Positions 18,609-29,637 of a stretch of DNA of 35,062 bases are shown here, piece by piece (position 1 is the first letter of the stretch; every line of letters starts with the position of its first letter). Both the position numbers and the translations under genes were made by a program. The DNA is from an uncultured Clostridia bacterium (GTDB lineage Bacteria > Bacillota > Clostridia > Peptostreptococcales > Anaerovoracaceae), in contig CALZOZ010000013.1 in assembly GCA_945828095.1 (NCBI GenBank), positions 1 to 35,062 of the forward strand, in the 5' to 3' direction. The notes beneath the pieces are model-generated. The model saw nothing but the letters and a program-made list of their open reading frames with translations, was not told where the DNA came from and did no database searches.

Positions 18609-19556
18609 TTATCCCCTTTCCCTGATGATATAAACAGGCCTTTTCTTACTTTCCAGACAATCTTTATAAATATAAAGTCCCATTATGTAAATGCTTATAA
18701 GCTGAACTCCGGCCAAAAGCATCACAACACAGATAATCAGTTCTGTTCCGCTCATCTGCCCTGTTCCTGAAATGAGCTGAATAGCCTTTACCATAGCAAA
18801 GACGAGTCCGGCAATGATGGATGTCAAACCAAGTAAGCCGGGCAGCCTCAGCGGAGCAGAAGAAAAAGATATTATTCCTTCAGCAGCATATTTGAACAGG
18901 CTTTTAAATGACCATTTGGTGCTTCCGCAGGTTCTTTCAACATTGTCAAACTCAAGCCATTTGGTTCGAAATCCCACGAAGCAGAAGATACCCTTCATAT
19001 AACGGTTGTACTCGCCCGTGTTAATGATAGCATCCGTCATTTTTCGGCACATCATCCTAAAATCTCCCTGGCCGTCTCTCATATCCATGTGTGTCAGCCT
19101 GCTGCTTACACGATAAAAAGCTCTGGAGAGGAATGCTCTTAAACCGCCGTCACCTTCGCGACCTTTGCGTTTTCCGCCGCAGCAGTCCCATCCCTCTATG
19201 CTTACGGCTCTATACATATAAGGAAGGAGAGTCGGAGGATGCTGCAGGTCCGCATCCATTATGACACAGTAATCACCCTTTGCCTCTTTGAGTCCGGCGA
19301 ACATGGCGGCTTCCTTTCCAAAATTTCTCGAAAATGAAATGTACCTGCATCTTTCATCTTGTCTTTTCAATTTTTTTAAATATTCAGCCGTTTTGTCGGT
19401 ACTGCCGTCATCTACAAATATAAACTCATAATCTGCATTTTCAATACTGCAAAGTACCTCTGAGGTTTTTTCATAAAACATAGGCAGGCTTTCTTCCTCG
19501 TTGAAACATGGCACTATGACGCTTATCAGATCTGTTGTCAGATTACTAGGCTTCAT
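18609..19556 (-). CDS. Family 2 glycosyltransferase, CsbB/GtrB-like (undecaprenyl-phosphate sugar transferase)
   Basis: A 315-residue protein with an N-terminal GT-A catalytic domain (ISVIVPCFNEEESLP, then FVDDGSTDKT and the metal-binding DADLQHPP) and two C-terminal membrane helices (about 235-258 and 268-292), the architecture of enzymes that load a sugar from a UDP donor onto undecaprenyl phosphate. AGGAGG sits 8 nt before the ATG. It overlaps GtrA by 11 bases and is last in the YfhO-GtrA-GT2 operon. In Bacillus and Listeria relatives, CsbB-type transferase, GtcA-type flippase and YfhO-type GT-C enzyme cooperate to glycosylate lipoteichoic acid; the same division of labour is inferred here. 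Confidence 0.88.
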   Translation of the reverse strand: MKPSNLTTDLISVIVPCFNEEESLPMFYEKTSEVLCSIENADYEFIFVDDGSTDKTAEYLKKLKRQDERCRYISFSRNFGKEAAMFAGLKEAKGDYCVIMDADLQHPPTLLPYMYRAVSIEGWDCCGGKRKGREGDGGLRAFLSRAFYRVSSRLTHMDMRDGQGDFRMMCRKMTDAIINTGEYNRYMKGIFCFVGFRTKWLEFDNVERTCGSTKWSFKSLFKYAAEGIISFSSAPLRLPGLLGLTSIIAGLVFAMVKAIQLISGTGQMSGTELIICVVMLLAGVQLISIYIMGLYIYKDCLESKKRPVYIIRERG

Positions 19557-19980
19557 GTCTAAGACCTCCTTTCCTGAAAATACCGTATTTGCAGGCTGTA
19601 TAGTTTGCGATAACAGTTACGATGCTTACCACCAGTTTAGATATGATCTCATCTGCTCCCATAATGCTTATTAGCAGGTAAAGCAGCATATTTTCTGCAA
19701 TCAGTGTGGCAAAGCGCAGCCCGGCAAAACGAAAGAATTCTCCGACAGGATTGCCCACGGATTTAAAAACTACTCTTCGATTCATGAAAAAGGCGAAGGC
19801 TACTGCTCCGCACCATGCCAGCGTGTTGGCCAGAATATACCTCACGGATACGGATGTGAGTCCAAAATATATTACATAATTTACTGCTGTAGTCATACCT
19901 CCTGTCAATATGTAGCGCAGCAACTCCATCTGTAGCAGTTTGCTAAGCTTTGCTTCCCATTCGGTTGATAGTTTTTTCAT
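19546..19980 (-). CDS. GtrA/GtcA-family membrane protein (putative lipid-linked sugar flippase)
   Basis: A 144-residue protein with four membrane segments, the GtrA signature at the N-terminus (RYILTGGMTTAVNYVIYF) and FFMNRRVVFKS between helices two and three. GtrA/GtcA proteins are thought to move undecaprenyl-phosphate-linked sugars across the membrane. The start is the ATG at 19980 with GAAGGAG just upstream; an ATG at 20007 lies before the site. It overlaps the end of YfhO by 38 bases and the start of the GT2 gene by 11, so the three proteins are tightly coupled. Confidence 0.87.
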   Translation of the reverse strand: MKKLSTEWEAKLSKLLQMELLRYILTGGMTTAVNYVIYFGLTSVSVRYILANTLAWCGAVAFAFFMNRRVVFKSVGNPVGEFFRFAGLRFATLIAENMLLYLLISIMGADEIISKLVVSIVTVIANYTACKYGIFRKGGLRHEA

Positions 19981-22336
19981 TTTTTCTCCTTCTTTCTGTA
20001 ATCTCATATATCCAAATCAGTACGAATACTGCCGCAGCCGTCAGGCTTGCAATTTTTCCTTCAATGTATCCCGGAGCGGTGAAAGTCAGTTTTATGTGAT
20101 GATTTCCGCCCTCAAGAGGAAAGCCCATAAAGGACATGTTTATCTTCTCTATTTTTGTTTCTTTACCGTCTACATAAGCTTTATATCCATTTCTGAAAGG
20201 GTAGGATGATGCGAAAAAGCCTTTCTTCGGCATGCTGACAGTACCTTCAAAGACCATCTCTTCGTTTTCGTTTCCCGCAGTGTGCTCATAATCAGTCTGA
20301 GGAACAATTATGCTTTTAAGATTCTCATCGCCTGTCAGTCTTTCTGAATTCATAACCCATAAACGAATATCCCTGATGCTGTATTCTCCTTTTGAAAAAG
20401 TGAGGTCCAATGTACCCTCCTGTTCTGAAAGTGCCGGCAGTATAAATATGAAGTCATTGTTGTTGTTCGGGTACGGTGCTGTCGCCCCGGAAAGCTTGTT
20501 GGTTACCCCATTGATTGTCACGACAAGTTCATGCCCGCTCGGTGCCTCCACATGAAACGCTATTATCAGAATTTTATCTTTGATACTCTTGTCTAATGGC
20601 AATGAGATTTCTTTCTTCTTTTGTAGAGCAAAATCATATTGTTTTTTTCCATCCCGGTCCAAAGAAGCGCTATCACTTAAAAGCTGTTCGGGCAAAAGTT
20701 CCTCAATGGCCGTCTCAAAATCATCTGCAGATACAAAATCTCCTTGGTCTACAGATACCGCTGCCCCATCACTTATTACAGTTCTAAAGCAAAGTGCCTC
20801 AATGTTATATGGAAAATCCAGGTTTTTGAATTCACTTTCTTTCATAAAACTTGTGGTGCCATAGCATACGGGAAGCACTTTTTTGTTTTCCTTCATTATC
20901 TGCTGCGCGCCTCCCAGTCCGTACCTTACTCCCATAAAGTAATTGAAGAAAACGTTTCTGCCCGGTACCAGAGCCACTCTGTTTCTTATAGGTATGGCAT
21001 TTTTCATAGTGTCGTAAAAGAAACTGCTGTAGCAGTCATTGGTGACTGATGAATACATTCCTGTGCTTCCTGCCCCTTCTGCCTCAATCAGGTTGCAGCA
21101 GGTAAAGCTTTCGTCAAGGAGTTCGTACCTGTAAAGCTTATTAAGGTCAAGGTCAGCATCAGGCAGCAGCGATTTATCCCCTGCAATGTATTTTTCCGTG
21201 CAATTGGCTGTTAAACTTACACACACCGGCAGCACAAGCATTGCCGCTGCCAGGTGTCTGCTTCTGAAGATGTCCATACATGTTTCTCTGCACACAAGGC
21301 ATACCAGCGGAAGCATCGGTATTAAAATCTTAGCTCTGGCATAAAGAAAGCCGTTAAGTACCAGGCTAAAAACAGGAAACAAGAAAAACACCGCAAGGCA
21401 TGCGGATAATAATCTGGTTTTTTTCTTGGCAACTCCTGCTGCCAGACAAAGAGCACCGACAATGTCCATACCACAGCCATATGGGCTGAAAAGCAGCCCT
21501 TCCAAAGTGAAATCAAATACTTTAAGATTTTCTGCTGCAAATGCGCCTCCGTCCTTGCTGGTGGAAAGGATATCAAGGCCTGTAGGAAGCAGCAGCACAG
21601 CTGCCATGCCTGTAGCCAAAATCACAGCTGCTGCCGCTCTTACTAATAGCGTACCCCTATTCTTAAAGCCGCTGCCATCCTCTGCAAGTCTGCTTAAGAA
21701 ATAAATGAAGCACGCAACAAGACATGAAAAAGCATAAAAAAAGCTATGAATATATATCAAGAAAATCCCTGCCGTAAGCATACAAATCTTATTTTTTTCT
21801 ATGAGCCTGTCTACACCTAGCAATGCTGTTATCAAAAACGGCATATAGTTTACGAAAATTATCTGATGATGGCTGTGATAAAAGCACGTCGCACATGCAA
21901 ACAGCACCGATGCAAAAAAGGAAGTAAATATACTGTGAGAAGTCGCTCCTTCTGATCCTTTCGGATGAGGTTTTCTAAGCCAATAAAAACACAGATTCAC
22001 GGAAGCCACGTAGCCGAGCAGTGCGTATCCGGCGATAATATATTTCATGTTCACAGATGGCATCAGGCATGAAATCAGCACGTCAGGCCTGAGAAGCCCG
22101 TAATATGCGAAATCGTAAATGCTGCTGCCGCCTCCCAGAGGCACGAACTGCGGTATGAGCTTTCCTGTGTCCAGCATTAAACGCCGCAGGCTTTCAGCGA
22201 TGGTCAGGTGCTGAGTATACCAGTCCCCTTCTGAACCGTAAAACGAACCTGCCGGTACCGGCAGCAGCGCCAGTGCAAGTACAAGCGCTGTCAATGCCAT
22301 ATGACACAGAAGTATTTTTTGTTTATCTCCTGCCAT
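19943..22336 (-). CDS. YfhO-family membrane protein (GT-C-type glycosyltransferase)
   Basis: A 797-residue protein with about 12 hydrophobic segments in the N-terminal half, a large extracytoplasmic domain (about residues 390-760) and one terminal helix. The first loop carries DWYTQH and PLGGGSSIYDFAYY, typical of the YfhO family, which uses polyprenyl-phosphate sugars outside the cell. Length is close to the family's usual 800-900. An overlapping six-codon ORF (ATG at 22343) sits between a GGGGG purine run and the YfhO start. It is first in the YfhO-GtrA-GT2 operon, whose promoter carries the same boxes as the adjacent two-component system. Confidence 0.87.
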   Translation of the reverse strand: MAGDKQKILLCHMALTALVLALALLPVPAGSFYGSEGDWYTQHLTIAESLRRLMLDTGKLIPQFVPLGGGSSIYDFAYYGLLRPDVLISCLMPSVNMKYIIAGYALLGYVASVNLCFYWLRKPHPKGSEGATSHSIFTSFFASVLFACATCFYHSHHQIIFVNYMPFLITALLGVDRLIEKNKICMLTAGIFLIYIHSFFYAFSCLVACFIYFLSRLAEDGSGFKNRGTLLVRAAAAVILATGMAAVLLLPTGLDILSTSKDGGAFAAENLKVFDFTLEGLLFSPYGCGMDIVGALCLAAGVAKKKTRLLSACLAVFFLFPVFSLVLNGFLYARAKILIPMLPLVCLVCRETCMDIFRSRHLAAAMLVLPVCVSLTANCTEKYIAGDKSLLPDADLDLNKLYRYELLDESFTCCNLIEAEGAGSTGMYSSVTNDCYSSFFYDTMKNAIPIRNRVALVPGRNVFFNYFMGVRYGLGGAQQIMKENKKVLPVCYGTTSFMKESEFKNLDFPYNIEALCFRTVISDGAAVSVDQGDFVSADDFETAIEELLPEQLLSDSASLDRDGKKQYDFALQKKKEISLPLDKSIKDKILIIAFHVEAPSGHELVVTINGVTNKLSGATAPYPNNNNDFIFILPALSEQEGTLDLTFSKGEYSIRDIRLWVMNSERLTGDENLKSIIVPQTDYEHTAGNENEEMVFEGTVSMPKKGFFASSYPFRNGYKAYVDGKETKIEKINMSFMGFPLEGGNHHIKLTFTAPGYIEGKIASLTAAAVFVLIWIYEITERRRKNEKTINRMGSKA

Positions 22337-22379: not shown

Positions 22380-22443
22380 ATCATAATGCCTGAAGCTTAA
22401 ATCATTTGGAATTTAATCTTAATCTTTCTTAAATAAATCTTAA
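22380..22443 (-). promoter_or_regulatory. YfhO-operon promoter with phased TTAAGA boxes
   Basis: Minus-strand TTAAGA boxes (TCTTAA on plus) start at 22417, 22427 and 22438, and a TTAAGC variant at 22395, giving 10, 11 and 22 bp steps. A TATGAT -10 (22380-22385) lies 9 bp downstream of the last box. Direct repeats at helical spacing are typical of OmpR/PhoB-family sites. Confidence 0.7.
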
Positions 22444-22486
22444 TTTCATTTCCGGCGGCATAAATGTCCGACGGCGAAAACCGAGT

Positions 22487-22519
22487 AAAAAAAAGAGCCT
22501 GCACCACTCATCCAAGCTC
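22487..22519 (-). terminator. Intrinsic terminator of the two-component operon
   Basis: On the minus strand GAGCTTG (22513-22519) pairs with CAGGCTC (22495-22501) with one wobble, followed by a T8 run (22487-22494), just after the kinase stop. Confidence 0.78.
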
Positions 22520-22530
22520 CTTAGTTCAGT

Positions 22531-23844
22531 TTATTTAATCAAGTTCTCTTGATTCGCAATTTCATCCATACCATCGGGAAATGCCAGGCGCACTTTGAAC
22601 TGGTCACAGTCGATAAATATATCGAAAAGACCTCCAAGTGCTCCTGTGTAAGTGCTTACTATTGCAAGTCCGAGGCCGTTCCCTTCACTGCTTCTTGACT
22701 TATCGCCTCTGGCAAAGCGCTCTATGATATCTTCTTTCTCGAAGTCCATCATGTAACCGGCAGTGTTGGTTATCTCCAGGCATATCTTTCTGCCCTCAAG
22801 GAGACTTTTTTCTTCCGGCTCAACGAAAGTCTTGACAAATACCCTCGTGCCTTTTGCCGAATACTTCAGAGCATTTTCTATGAGATTCTGGCAGATGCGG
22901 TACATATGGGCATTATCCGTAACAAGGCGGGTATCCTCTCCGGACAGCTGTTTGACAAAGGTCAGGCCGCTTTTATATATTTTGTCCTCCATATCGGCAA
23001 AAATCTGCTCGATAAGCCTGTTCATGTCAATGACCTCCTTATGCAGCTCAATGTTGCCACTGCTAGCCTTTGCCAACGAAAAGAGACTTTCTATCATTTC
23101 CTTGAGTTTTTCCGCTCTGCTGCTGATAACGTTCACATAATCTTGACACACAGGGCTCAGTTCCTCTTTCTTCAGCAGCTCTATGTAGCCCACCATGGAT
23201 GTGAGGGGTGTCTTCAGGTCATGAGATACATTGGAAATAAGGTCTACCTTGAGTTGTTCGCTCTTAGCAGCCTTTTCCATACTCTGCCTTTCCATTTCCA
23301 CCGCCTCAGCCATCTTTTTACGATTGATCTCAGCCGCCAAAGAAACAAACTGACTGAGTTTTTCCTTAAGATATCCAACTACCGTTACTTCAGCTCCAGT
23401 CCATTGAACTCCCACAGATATGATTAGAAGATATCCGAAGGCATAATTGTAGTAAAACCTGCTCCTGCCAAACATAATGTTCAGGAAAAACATAATCGCA
23501 CCAAGCATCAGGGCGGAAAATACAATTATAATCATCTTCTGCTGCCGCTTCCACTCTTCATTCCATTCATCATAAGGAGACTGGCTTAAAGGTGAGGGCT
23601 GCCATGCTCCATATCTCTTTTCCAGACTCTCCTTCAGAATATTATGTATACCGTAAAGCACCAGAATATTTATTATTATTCCTGCGAGAAGAACTATCCT
23701 TGTAGGCGTGCTCGGTGCTTCCCGGAATAGTTTCAGGAACAATACAAGTGCTGCCGTCAATGAAGTCCAGCCTGCGATTATCCTGCGGTTTCTCTTCACA
23801 ATGTCCGATGCCCTACTTGCTATACTTTTCCATTTTGTATCCAA
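22531..23844 (-). CDS. Membrane sensor histidine kinase
   Basis: A 437-residue kinase with four hydrophobic segments in the first 165 residues (about 22-40, 48-66, 104-126, 132-150) and little extracytoplasmic sequence, suggesting it senses membrane state or a partner. A coiled-coil-like stretch leads to the HisKA motif VSHDLKTPLTSM (phospho-acceptor His near 210) and the HATPase boxes NLIENALKYS and GNGLGLAI. The gene overlaps the response regulator by 32 bases. Shared promoter boxes link this pair to the downstream YfhO glycosylation operon. Confidence 0.92.
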   Translation of the reverse strand: MDTKWKSIASRASDIVKRNRRIIAGWTSLTAALVLFLKLFREAPSTPTRIVLLAGIIINILVLYGIHNILKESLEKRYGAWQPSPLSQSPYDEWNEEWKRQQKMIIIVFSALMLGAIMFFLNIMFGRSRFYYNYAFGYLLIISVGVQWTGAEVTVVGYLKEKLSQFVSLAAEINRKKMAEAVEMERQSMEKAAKSEQLKVDLISNVSHDLKTPLTSMVGYIELLKKEELSPVCQDYVNVISSRAEKLKEMIESLFSLAKASSGNIELHKEVIDMNRLIEQIFADMEDKIYKSGLTFVKQLSGEDTRLVTDNAHMYRICQNLIENALKYSAKGTRVFVKTFVEPEEKSLLEGRKICLEITNTAGYMMDFEKEDIIERFARGDKSRSSEGNGLGLAIVSTYTGALGGLFDIFIDCDQFKVRLAFPDGMDEIANQENLIK

Positions 23845-24523
23845 TTCCCCACACCACCTTTACATATCTAGGATTTTTTGCGTCTATCTCTATTTTTTCT
23901 CTGATGTGCCTGATATGCACCATAACAGTGTTTTCTACCGCAAAGTCCGCCTGTTCGTTCCACACTTTTTCGTATATCTGCTCTGCTGAAAACACCTGTC
24001 CCGGATGCTCCATGAGAAGCGAGAGTATCTTATACTCGGTGGCAGTAAGTTTAACAGGCATCCCCTCTGCCAGCACAATTTTCTGTTTAAGATCCAGCAC
24101 TAACCCGCCGTTGGCTATTGTATCTCCGCCGGATTCCGGTTTGCTCCCGCCGTATGCCTTGTAGCGTCTCAGCTGTGCCTTGACCCTTGCAATGAGTTCG
24201 GCAGGATTGTATGGCTTGCTTATGTAATCATCTGCACCCAGTACCAGTCCGGAAACCTTGTCGCTTTCCTCGGTTTTGGCAGAAAGTATAATGGCAGGTA
24301 TATTGCAGTTTTCACGTATTTTCATCAATGTGGAAAGCCCGTTGAGCCGAGGCATCATCACATCCAGAAGTATCAGGTCAACCCGTGTTTTTTCCAGCAC
24401 ATTCAGTGCTTCCATACCGTCATATGCCTCCAACACATCATATCCTTCAAAGCTCAGAAGTTTACCCAGCGAGTCCACTATTTCTCTGTTGTCATCTACT
24501 ATTAAAATTCTTTCCTTATCCAT
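23813..24523 (-). CDS. OmpR/PhoB-family response regulator
   Basis: A 236-residue regulator: receiver domain (residues 1-115) with acidic pair D10-D11, phospho-acceptor D54 in LILLDVMMP and the conserved KP near 104, then a winged-helix DNA-binding domain (about 135-232) ending VWGIGYKME. No strong Shine-Dalgarno sequence is seen before the ATG. Four TTAAGA-like boxes precede its promoter, so it probably binds its own promoter, and the same architecture precedes yfhO. The signal is unknown. Confidence 0.93.
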   Translation of the reverse strand: MDKERILIVDDNREIVDSLGKLLSFEGYDVLEAYDGMEALNVLEKTRVDLILLDVMMPRLNGLSTLMKIRENCNIPAIILSAKTEESDKVSGLVLGADDYISKPYNPAELIARVKAQLRRYKAYGGSKPESGGDTIANGGLVLDLKQKIVLAEGMPVKLTATEYKILSLLMEHPGQVFSAEQIYEKVWNEQADFAVENTVMVHIRHIREKIEIDAKNPRYVKVVWGIGYKMEKYSK

Positions 24524-24571
24524 TGATGCGTTTTTCTATCCTTCCCCATTTAGTTTTCTCTTTCTTTCTCC

Positions 24572-24626
24572 ATGATAATGCATGAGTCTTAACAATCTTC
24601 TTATGTAAATCTTAAAAATCTCTTAA
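24572..24626 (-). promoter_or_regulatory. Two-component operon promoter with phased TTAAGA boxes
   Basis: Minus-strand TTAAGA boxes start (plus coordinates) at 24587, 24610 and 24621, with an ATAAGA variant at 24599: steps of 12, 11 and 11 bp. A TATCAT -10 (24572-24577) follows the last box by exactly 9 bp, as in the YfhO promoter. Confidence 0.72.
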
Positions 24627-24641
24627 TCCGGTTCTTCTCAG

Positions 24642-24668
24642 AAAAATACCCGCAGCGCAAACCGCGGG
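24642..24668 (-). terminator. Intrinsic terminator of fhs
   Basis: On the minus strand CCCGC (24664-24668) and GCGGG (24649-24653) form a GC-rich stem extended by weaker pairs, followed by TATTTTT. A second perfect 8-bp hairpin, GAAAACAG/CTGTTTTC (24688-24708), lies between it and the fhs stop. Confidence 0.75.
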
Positions 24669-24718
24669 CATTACAAATACATTTTCAGAAAACAGCTATG
24701 CTGTTTTCGCTGGATTTG

Positions 24719-28691: not shown

Positions 28692-29180
28692 ATGATCATA
28701 GACATGAACAGTCTGGAACCGGTCTACGAAAAGTATAAAGACAATATTTTCGCAATTGGTTTCAACTACTTCAAAAACTCCATAGAGGCAGATGATGTGG
28801 TACAGGAGACCTTTCTCAAGCTGGCACGCTCAGGCAAAGAGTTCGAAAACGAAGAACACCTTCGAAACTGGCTCATCCGCGTAGCGGTCAACGAATGCAA
28901 GAGAGTAAGTCTTTCATCCTGGGTGAAGAAAAAGGTCAGCCTGGAGGAATACACCGGCCAGATAGATTTTGAAACAAACGAGGAAAGCCGGCTTTTCACC
29001 GCCGTCATGAGCCTGCCAAAAAAATACCGGCAGGTAATTCACCTCTACTACTATGAAGACTGCTGCACGGCGGAAATCGCAGATTATCTCGGTATAAGCC
29101 AAACTGCCGTCACCACCCGCCTGCTCCGCGGACGCAAAAAATTAAAAGAAGATTTGCTGGAGGTATGGAAAGATGAGTAA
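28692..29180 (+). CDS. ECF-type RNA polymerase sigma factor
   Basis: A 162-residue sigma-70-family protein with region 2 (about residues 10-75: NYFKNSIEADDVVQETFLKL) and region 4 (about 100-155: LPKKYRQVIHLYYYEDCCTAEIADYLGISQTAVTTRLLRGRKKL). Size and domain content define an extracytoplasmic-function sigma factor. AGGAG lies 6 nt before the ATG. It overlaps the next gene by 8 bases; that gene encodes a single-pass membrane protein in the position of an anti-sigma factor. The regulon is unknown. Confidence 0.92.
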   Translation: MIIDMNSLEPVYEKYKDNIFAIGFNYFKNSIEADDVVQETFLKLARSGKEFENEEHLRNWLIRVAVNECKRVSLSSWVKKKVSLEEYTGQIDFETNEESRLFTAVMSLPKKYRQVIHLYYYEDCCTAEIADYLGISQTAVTTRLLRGRKKLKEDLLEVWKDE

Positions 29181-29637
29181 CAGGGAACTTTATAAGCAGA
29201 CTTTTTCCCACCTTCACACGGACCATACCCTGGATCCGGAAGGAGTGAAAATGAAAATGCAAAAGAACACAAATATGACAGGACTGCGCTGTACCCGTCG
29301 CATTCTGGTAACCGCCATCATTATGACGTTAATGCTGGCCATGGCCGGTATAAGCTATGCAGCTACTGACGGGGCAGTACTGGACAGCATCATGGTATGG
29401 ATAAACGGTCATCCTGCCGGAGAAGGTAAGGTTACCGTGGAGGAAAACGGTGCTTATACTGTGCAGGTACAGGAAGGGGATAAAATTAAAATACAAGGCG
29501 ACGGATGGACTTCTGAAGCACAGGTCGGTGACATGGAAGGTTCCATATCCGTTTCGAATTCCGAATCGGAGGATGGTCTCAGCGTGGAAACCACTATAAA
29601 TATAAACGACACATCGGACGAAGAAAAAGAAGATTAA
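29173..29637 (+). CDS. Single-pass membrane protein, putative anti-sigma factor
   Basis: A 154-residue protein with a cytoplasmic N-terminus of about 42 residues, one membrane helix (about 43-64, ILVTAIIMTLMLAMAGISYA) and an extracytoplasmic domain of about 90 residues that is acidic and ends in a run of Asp/Glu/Lys. It overlaps the ECF sigma gene by 8 bases. Position and topology fit an anti-sigma factor. The N-terminal segment is short and lacks a recognisable zinc-binding anti-sigma motif, so the role is inferred from context only. The end of the helix resembles a signal-peptidase site (SYAA), so a secreted form is an alternative. Confidence 0.65.
   Translation: MSNRELYKQTFSHLHTDHTLDPEGVKMKMQKNTNMTGLRCTRRILVTAIIMTLMLAMAGISYAATDGAVLDSIMVWINGHPAGEGKVTVEENGAYTVQVQEGDKIKIQGDGWTSEAQVGDMEGSISVSNSESEDGLSVETTININDTSDEEKED

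Follow-up and report, generated by a model that had tools for sequence, protein, structure and literature searches.

TTAAG box arrays suggest control of a YfhO-type glycosylation operon by a VanR-like two-component system in gut Clostridia

The window analysed here is a stretch of 35,062 nucleotides from an uncultured bacterium of the Anaerovoracaceae, in which genes for a two-component system lie next to a putative glycosylation operon. Repeated TTAAG boxes precede both, which raises the question of whether the regulator controls its own gene and the glycosylation operon together, as a first-pass annotation had proposed. The genes concerned are the following.

23813..24523, minus strand: VanR-like OmpR/PhoB response regulator, 236 aa (Pfam Response_reg and Trans_reg_C)
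22531..23844, minus strand: sensor histidine kinase, 437 aa (HisKA and HATPase_c; three N-terminal hydrophobic segments by hydropathy)
19943..22336, minus strand: YfhO-family polytopic (GT-C type) glycosyltransferase, 797 aa (Pfam YfhO, 140.6 bits)
19546..20007 (start uncertain), minus strand: GtrA-family membrane protein, probable lipid-sugar flippase (Pfam GtrA_DPMS_TM)
18609..19556, minus strand: GT2 polyprenyl-phosphate glycosyltransferase, nearest to PgfS (Pfam GT2; NCBIfam PgfS 302 bits, cut-off 500)

The regulator consists of a receiver and a winged helix, both Pfam models scoring far above cut-off, which places it in the OmpR/PhoB family. Its best NCBIfam model is the VanR family, at 261 bits against a curated cut-off of 350. 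The kinase reading frame overlaps the regulator gene and has an uncertain TTG start; on the sole basis of its three N-terminal hydrophobic segments the protein may be described as membrane-sensing. The GT2, GtrA and YfhO genes form consecutive overlapping frames on the same strand and, with their Pfam assignments, make up a three-component operon. The nearest named models at the locus (VanR, VanS, PgfM and PgfS) all score under their curated cut-offs. The pair thus resembles VanRS in its closest regulator and kinase models, but differs in these low scores and in that no van resistance enzyme occurs among the seven neighbourhood proteins scanned with Pfam (regulator, kinase, YfhO, GtrA, GT2, HTH and FTHFS). 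Elsewhere in the window, the frame of a sigma-factor-like protein (28692-29180, plus strand) overlaps that of a single-pass membrane protein downstream of it (29173-29637); by eye this looks like an ECF sigma/anti-sigma pair.

The promoter of the YfhO operon (P1) and that of the regulator (P2) contain the following elements.

22380..22385, minus strand: P1 -10 hexamer TATGAT, read from the sequence, 10 bp after the last TTAAG
22396..22443, minus strand: P1 box array, with TTAAG starting at 22443, 22432, 22422 and 22400
about 22484..22522, minus strand: terminator-like hairpin and U tract between the kinase gene and P1 (fold z = -2.7)
24572..24577, minus strand: P2 -10 hexamer TATCAT, read from the sequence, 10 bp after the last TTAAG
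24588..24626, minus strand: P2 box array, with TTAAG at 24626, 24615 and 24592 and the one-mismatch ATAAG at 24604
about 24640..24672, minus strand: terminator-like hairpin and U tract between the FTHFS gene and P2 (fold z = -4.3)

Read along the minus strand, the boxes of P1 follow one another at steps of 11, 10 and 22 bp, the last step holding just one very degenerate box, and those of P2 at 11, 11 and 12 bp when the degenerate ATAAG is counted. Phased boxes are therefore present at both promoters as first annotated, but the steps of 10–12 bp do not run throughout, and the two architectures are alike rather than identical, as P1 has its 22-bp step and P2 needs a degenerate box. Exactly 10 bp lie between the last TTAAG and the -10 hexamer at each promoter, in agreement with the 9 bp originally reported, which was counted from a six-base box. 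A promoter scan detected no -35 match at P1 or P2, and a sigma-70 reading with a -35 element was rejected on this ground. Each promoter lies downstream of a terminator-like hairpin, both revealed by folding and neither detected by a consensus terminator scan, so that each looks like the start of an independent transcription unit.

Within the window, TTAAG pairs at 10–12 bp occur at P1 and P2 only, and the joint feature of the two promoters was found in none of 20,000 dinucleotide shuffles of each. The genome assembly to which the window (contig C13) belongs comprises 2.14 Mb in 127 contigs and is 94% complete; its search was confined to patterns. Exactly two matches, P1 and P2, were obtained with the full pattern TTAAGN{5,6}TTAAGN{16,30}TTAAGN10TANNNT, against none in the reversed control. 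The box set was thus not seen before many unrelated genes of this genome, the outcome that was to count against the first-pass annotation; a third full-pattern site could be missing because the assembly is incomplete. Simpler patterns perform differently. Genome-wide, TTAAG pairs by themselves lack specificity (35 matches against 26 in the reversed control), and so does the last box with its -10 (7 against 8). The shorter pattern TAAGNNNWWTTTAAGA also matches only P1 and P2 in this genome, but summed over 20 genomes it gives 45 matches against 45 in the control by tally. Only the full array and the gene context are therefore informative. Nothing was matched by a pattern that fixed the gap at 6 bp and required a -10 at 8–30 bp past the second box, because it omits the further boxes. 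A third TTAAG array of the same genome (L021 1501-1535; G000:C49:7808-7843) has four boxes at steps of 11, 10 and 10 bp and precedes a gene whose 179-aa product matches no Pfam family; a TATTAT lies about 22 bp past its last box, and there is no -10 at 10 bp.

Conservation of the boxes was followed in relatives of the regulator, for which 80 loci were obtained by searching genome contigs; 49 of these encode a regulator of 71–83% identity with a kinase adjacent. Over the 703 kb of these 49 close-orthologue loci there are 25 sites of TTAAG-N6-TTAAG, against one in the reversed control; 24 of the sites lie before the regulator and the remaining one before the linked YfhO gene of L061. With at most one mismatch the pair is present in 46 of the 47 usable close-orthologue regulator promoters, from Lachnospiraceae and Anaerovoracaceae, as against 1.2% of random 240-bp pieces. 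Downstream of the pair, TTAA(N)-N10-TANNNT is found in 30 of the 46 (about 1 in shuffles), and in 31 orthologue promoters box 2 is separated from box 4, in a slightly looser form, by 23 bp, as in P2. The recognition helix ENTVMVHIRHIREKIE is nearly constant among the close orthologues sampled. More distant relatives (group B, 59–66% identity; L108, L111, L125, L132 and L139) often have GTAAG instead of TTAAG boxes upstream, which suggests a one-base drift of the box; the code is thus not uniform across the wider family.

The same arrays precede the YfhO operons of relatives. The linked YfhO genes of L061 and L062 bear an array, in L079 an array precedes a GtrA-YfhO unit, and in L084 and L088 YfhO lies directly 3' of the kinase gene, as if cotranscribed. 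In two MAGs, of Eubacterium (L177) and Emergencia (L178), an unlinked YfhO gene has the array followed by N10 and TATCAT or TATGAT; the Emergencia MAG and genome G352 of the window's family have the same site. A scoring matrix trained on regulator promoters only, with 538 upstream regions as controls, placed the P1 promoter of the window above 99.8% of the controls and 12 of 14 other YfhO-operon promoters, unlinked operons included, above at least 99.2%; the other two reached about 95.5% (L180) and 96.7% (L183). Two of the 538 controls scored above 15.

The scan with the full pattern was extended to the window's family (351 genomes) and to that of Sporofaciens musculi (397 genomes). The former gave 29 among the sites listed against about 4 control sites by tally, and the latter was also enriched, less strongly. 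In the 5.8 Mb of S. musculi itself the pattern matches twice, at the regulator promoter and at the promoter of an unlinked GT2-YfhO operon. Where flanks were fetched, the genes downstream of full-pattern sites encode YfhO (10), GtrA (2), GT2 (2), response regulators (6) and DltA-like ligases (3, two of which were checked as proteins). A GtrA or GT2 array lies about 1–1.5 kb upstream of the YfhO match in G517, G623 and G759. Arrays before YfhO operons also occur in genomes without a close regulator orthologue (G013, G301, G759, G623 and G517), so related regulators can serve such operons.

Beyond YfhO, other Clostridia have the box array with a 10-bp -10 before DltA-like D-alanine ligase genes (L202, L216, L236; from about 1501), and in L201 the gene that follows it is diglucosyl-diacylglycerol-synthase-like. 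These cases hint at a box code of wider use in envelope modification. A TTAAGG-type variant, typically TTAAGGTTAATTAAGG...TTAAGGTTG and then TATCAT, stands before FtsX-like permease genes in Lachnospiraceae-type genomes (L235, L242, L243, L244, L249, L250, L251, L257 and L258) and probably represents another regulon. This variant and the arrays before other genes indicate that the general layout is common to other clostridial regulons.

Presence and absence of the components provide a further comparison. In the sister genus g99, an orthologue of the regulator (77–83% identity), YfhO (47–55%) and an array match occur together in 7 of 13 genomes, and the other six are without all three. In G359, one of the seven, array and YfhO fall on separate contigs, near an end of the first and at the start of the second, so that their joining is inferred. 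The independence of this 7-versus-6 pattern is limited by shared ancestry, and it may reflect few events of gain or loss. The five congeners of the window have no YfhO match, and their best regulator matches reach only 44–56%, which suggests that regulator and YfhO are acquired or lost as a module.

The co-occurrence bears on which protein acts at P1. A related regulator, for example the paralogue of 58% identity encoded on contig C32, might mainly control the YfhO operon while the adjacent regulator autoregulates or shares the sites. The recognition helix of the paralogue, ENTVAVHIRRIREKIE, is similar, and within its clade some regulator genes are themselves preceded by TTAAG pairs; moreover, a regulator of about 45% identity is divergent from an arrayed YfhO or GT2-YfhO unit in L260 (5512-6391), L261 (1157-2070) and L266 (3620-4451), and a divergent regulator-like reading frame was seen by eye in L180, L181 and L185, and confirmed in L180. 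The box code is therefore probably common to the regulator subfamily. Main control of the YfhO operon by a relative is nevertheless unlikely here: there is no divergent regulator beside YfhO in the window, and sister-genus genomes without YfhO keep the regulator clade of about 55% identity, while the close orthologue tracks YfhO exactly. The adjacent regulator is for this reason the best candidate in this genome.

It is also conceivable that the adjacent regulator represses P1, P2 or both from the same boxes. OmpR-family regulators can repress by covering the core promoter, and box position alone is no proof of sign. Activation is favoured by the lack of a -35 match at either promoter and by the 10-bp spacing, which is that of CiaR-activated promoters (PMC3091779), so that repression is a still less probable reading. 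A chance likeness of AT-rich spacers, which would fit the partial patterns, little or no commoner than in reversed controls, is scarcely credible in view of the full array (two genome-wide against none), the shuffles and the conservation in linked and unlinked relatives.

The reading that the VanR-like OmpR/PhoB regulator activates both its own operon and the YfhO-GtrA-GT2 operon is thus considered highly probable, and the regulatory link originally proposed is supported by box conservation at linked and unlinked operons and by the sister-genus co-occurrence. On a presumed signal, the adjacent kinase would phosphorylate the 236-aa regulator, and dimers of the regulator are predicted to occupy, in tandem, the TTAAG(A) boxes, which run head to tail with a spacing of about one helical turn. 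Direct repeats with a period of about 10–11 bp are the usual binding sites of OmpR/PhoB regulators, and such repeats are present and conserved here. At 10 bp from the -10, the last box would take the place of the -35 element, and there the bound regulator would most likely recruit RNA polymerase, activating the regulator-kinase operon from P2 and the separate YfhO-GtrA-GT2 operon from P1. The GT2 protein would then charge undecaprenyl phosphate with a sugar, the loaded lipid would be flipped by GtrA, and YfhO would transfer the sugar to an acceptor on the outer surface, for example lipoteichoic acid. Two Sulfatase-domain proteins that may be LtaS-like are also encoded in the genome, in frames of 690 and 632 aa.

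The protein set is that of the CsbB-GtcA-YfhO and GtlA-GtcA-GtlB systems of lipoteichoic acid glycosylation, with GT2, GtrA-family and YfhO-family members (PMC5836110, PMC7389260). PgfS and PgfM of S. mutans are of the same types, and their models match here below cut-off. In B. subtilis transcription of csbB-yfhO depends on sigma X and sigma B, ykcBC belongs to the YclJ and YrkP regulons, and ykoST is under YkoGH (PMC5836110). Operons of GT2 and YfhO type under two-component control therefore have a precedent in ykcBC and ykoST, although the regulators differ.

In promoter layout the closest parallel is CiaRH of streptococci, whose CiaR box is NTTAAG-N5-TTTAAG; the prediction rule is TTTAAG-N5-TTTAAG with the -10 ten bases later (PMC3091779). 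The upper box pair of P1 and P2 reads ATTAAG-N5-TTTAAG, with N10 between the last box and the -10, and so follows the CiaR layout, although this last box is not part of a perfect pair. Both systems combine an OmpR-family regulator, a TTAAG direct repeat with an 11-bp period and a -10 lying 10 bp after the last box, and CiaRH controls the envelope-modification locus dlt (PMC6581856). The window differs in having three to four boxes in place of two, a VanR-like regulator and YfhO glycosylation as the target; it would work like CiaR without being its orthologue. Orthology was rejected on the recognition helix, ENTVMVHIRHIREKIE here and VVEVYVSKVRKKL in CiaR (PMC3091779). A clostridial parallel is RR_1586 of C. 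difficile, an OmpR-type regulator for which an 11-bp TTAAG direct repeat, DRTTAAGNWWWDRTTAAGNWWW, is supported by experiment and which binds upstream of its own operon (PMC6222199), but whose proposed targets are sporulation and germination genes. The shared-box regulator and YfhO operon form, as a well supported prediction, a further case beside control by CiaR, RR_1586, YclJ/YrkP and YkoGH.

None of the papers searched was found to describe a link from a sensor kinase to surface sugars in gut Lachnospiraceae or Anaerovoracaceae. More broadly, and more tentatively, gut Clostridia may devote a VanR-like two-component regulon to envelope glycosylation, one that is gained and lost as a module, keeps its box code when regulator and sugar operon are unlinked and has its box type also at DltA and glycolipid-anchor genes of relatives, as a clostridial counterpart of CiaRH. 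A promoter pattern noticed by eye can in this way be converted into a prediction of a regulon for which phylogeny offers independent support, and the result is a concrete, testable box code by which, in gut Lachnospiraceae and Anaerovoracaceae, the decoration of the surface with sugars would be connected to a membrane sensor kinase.
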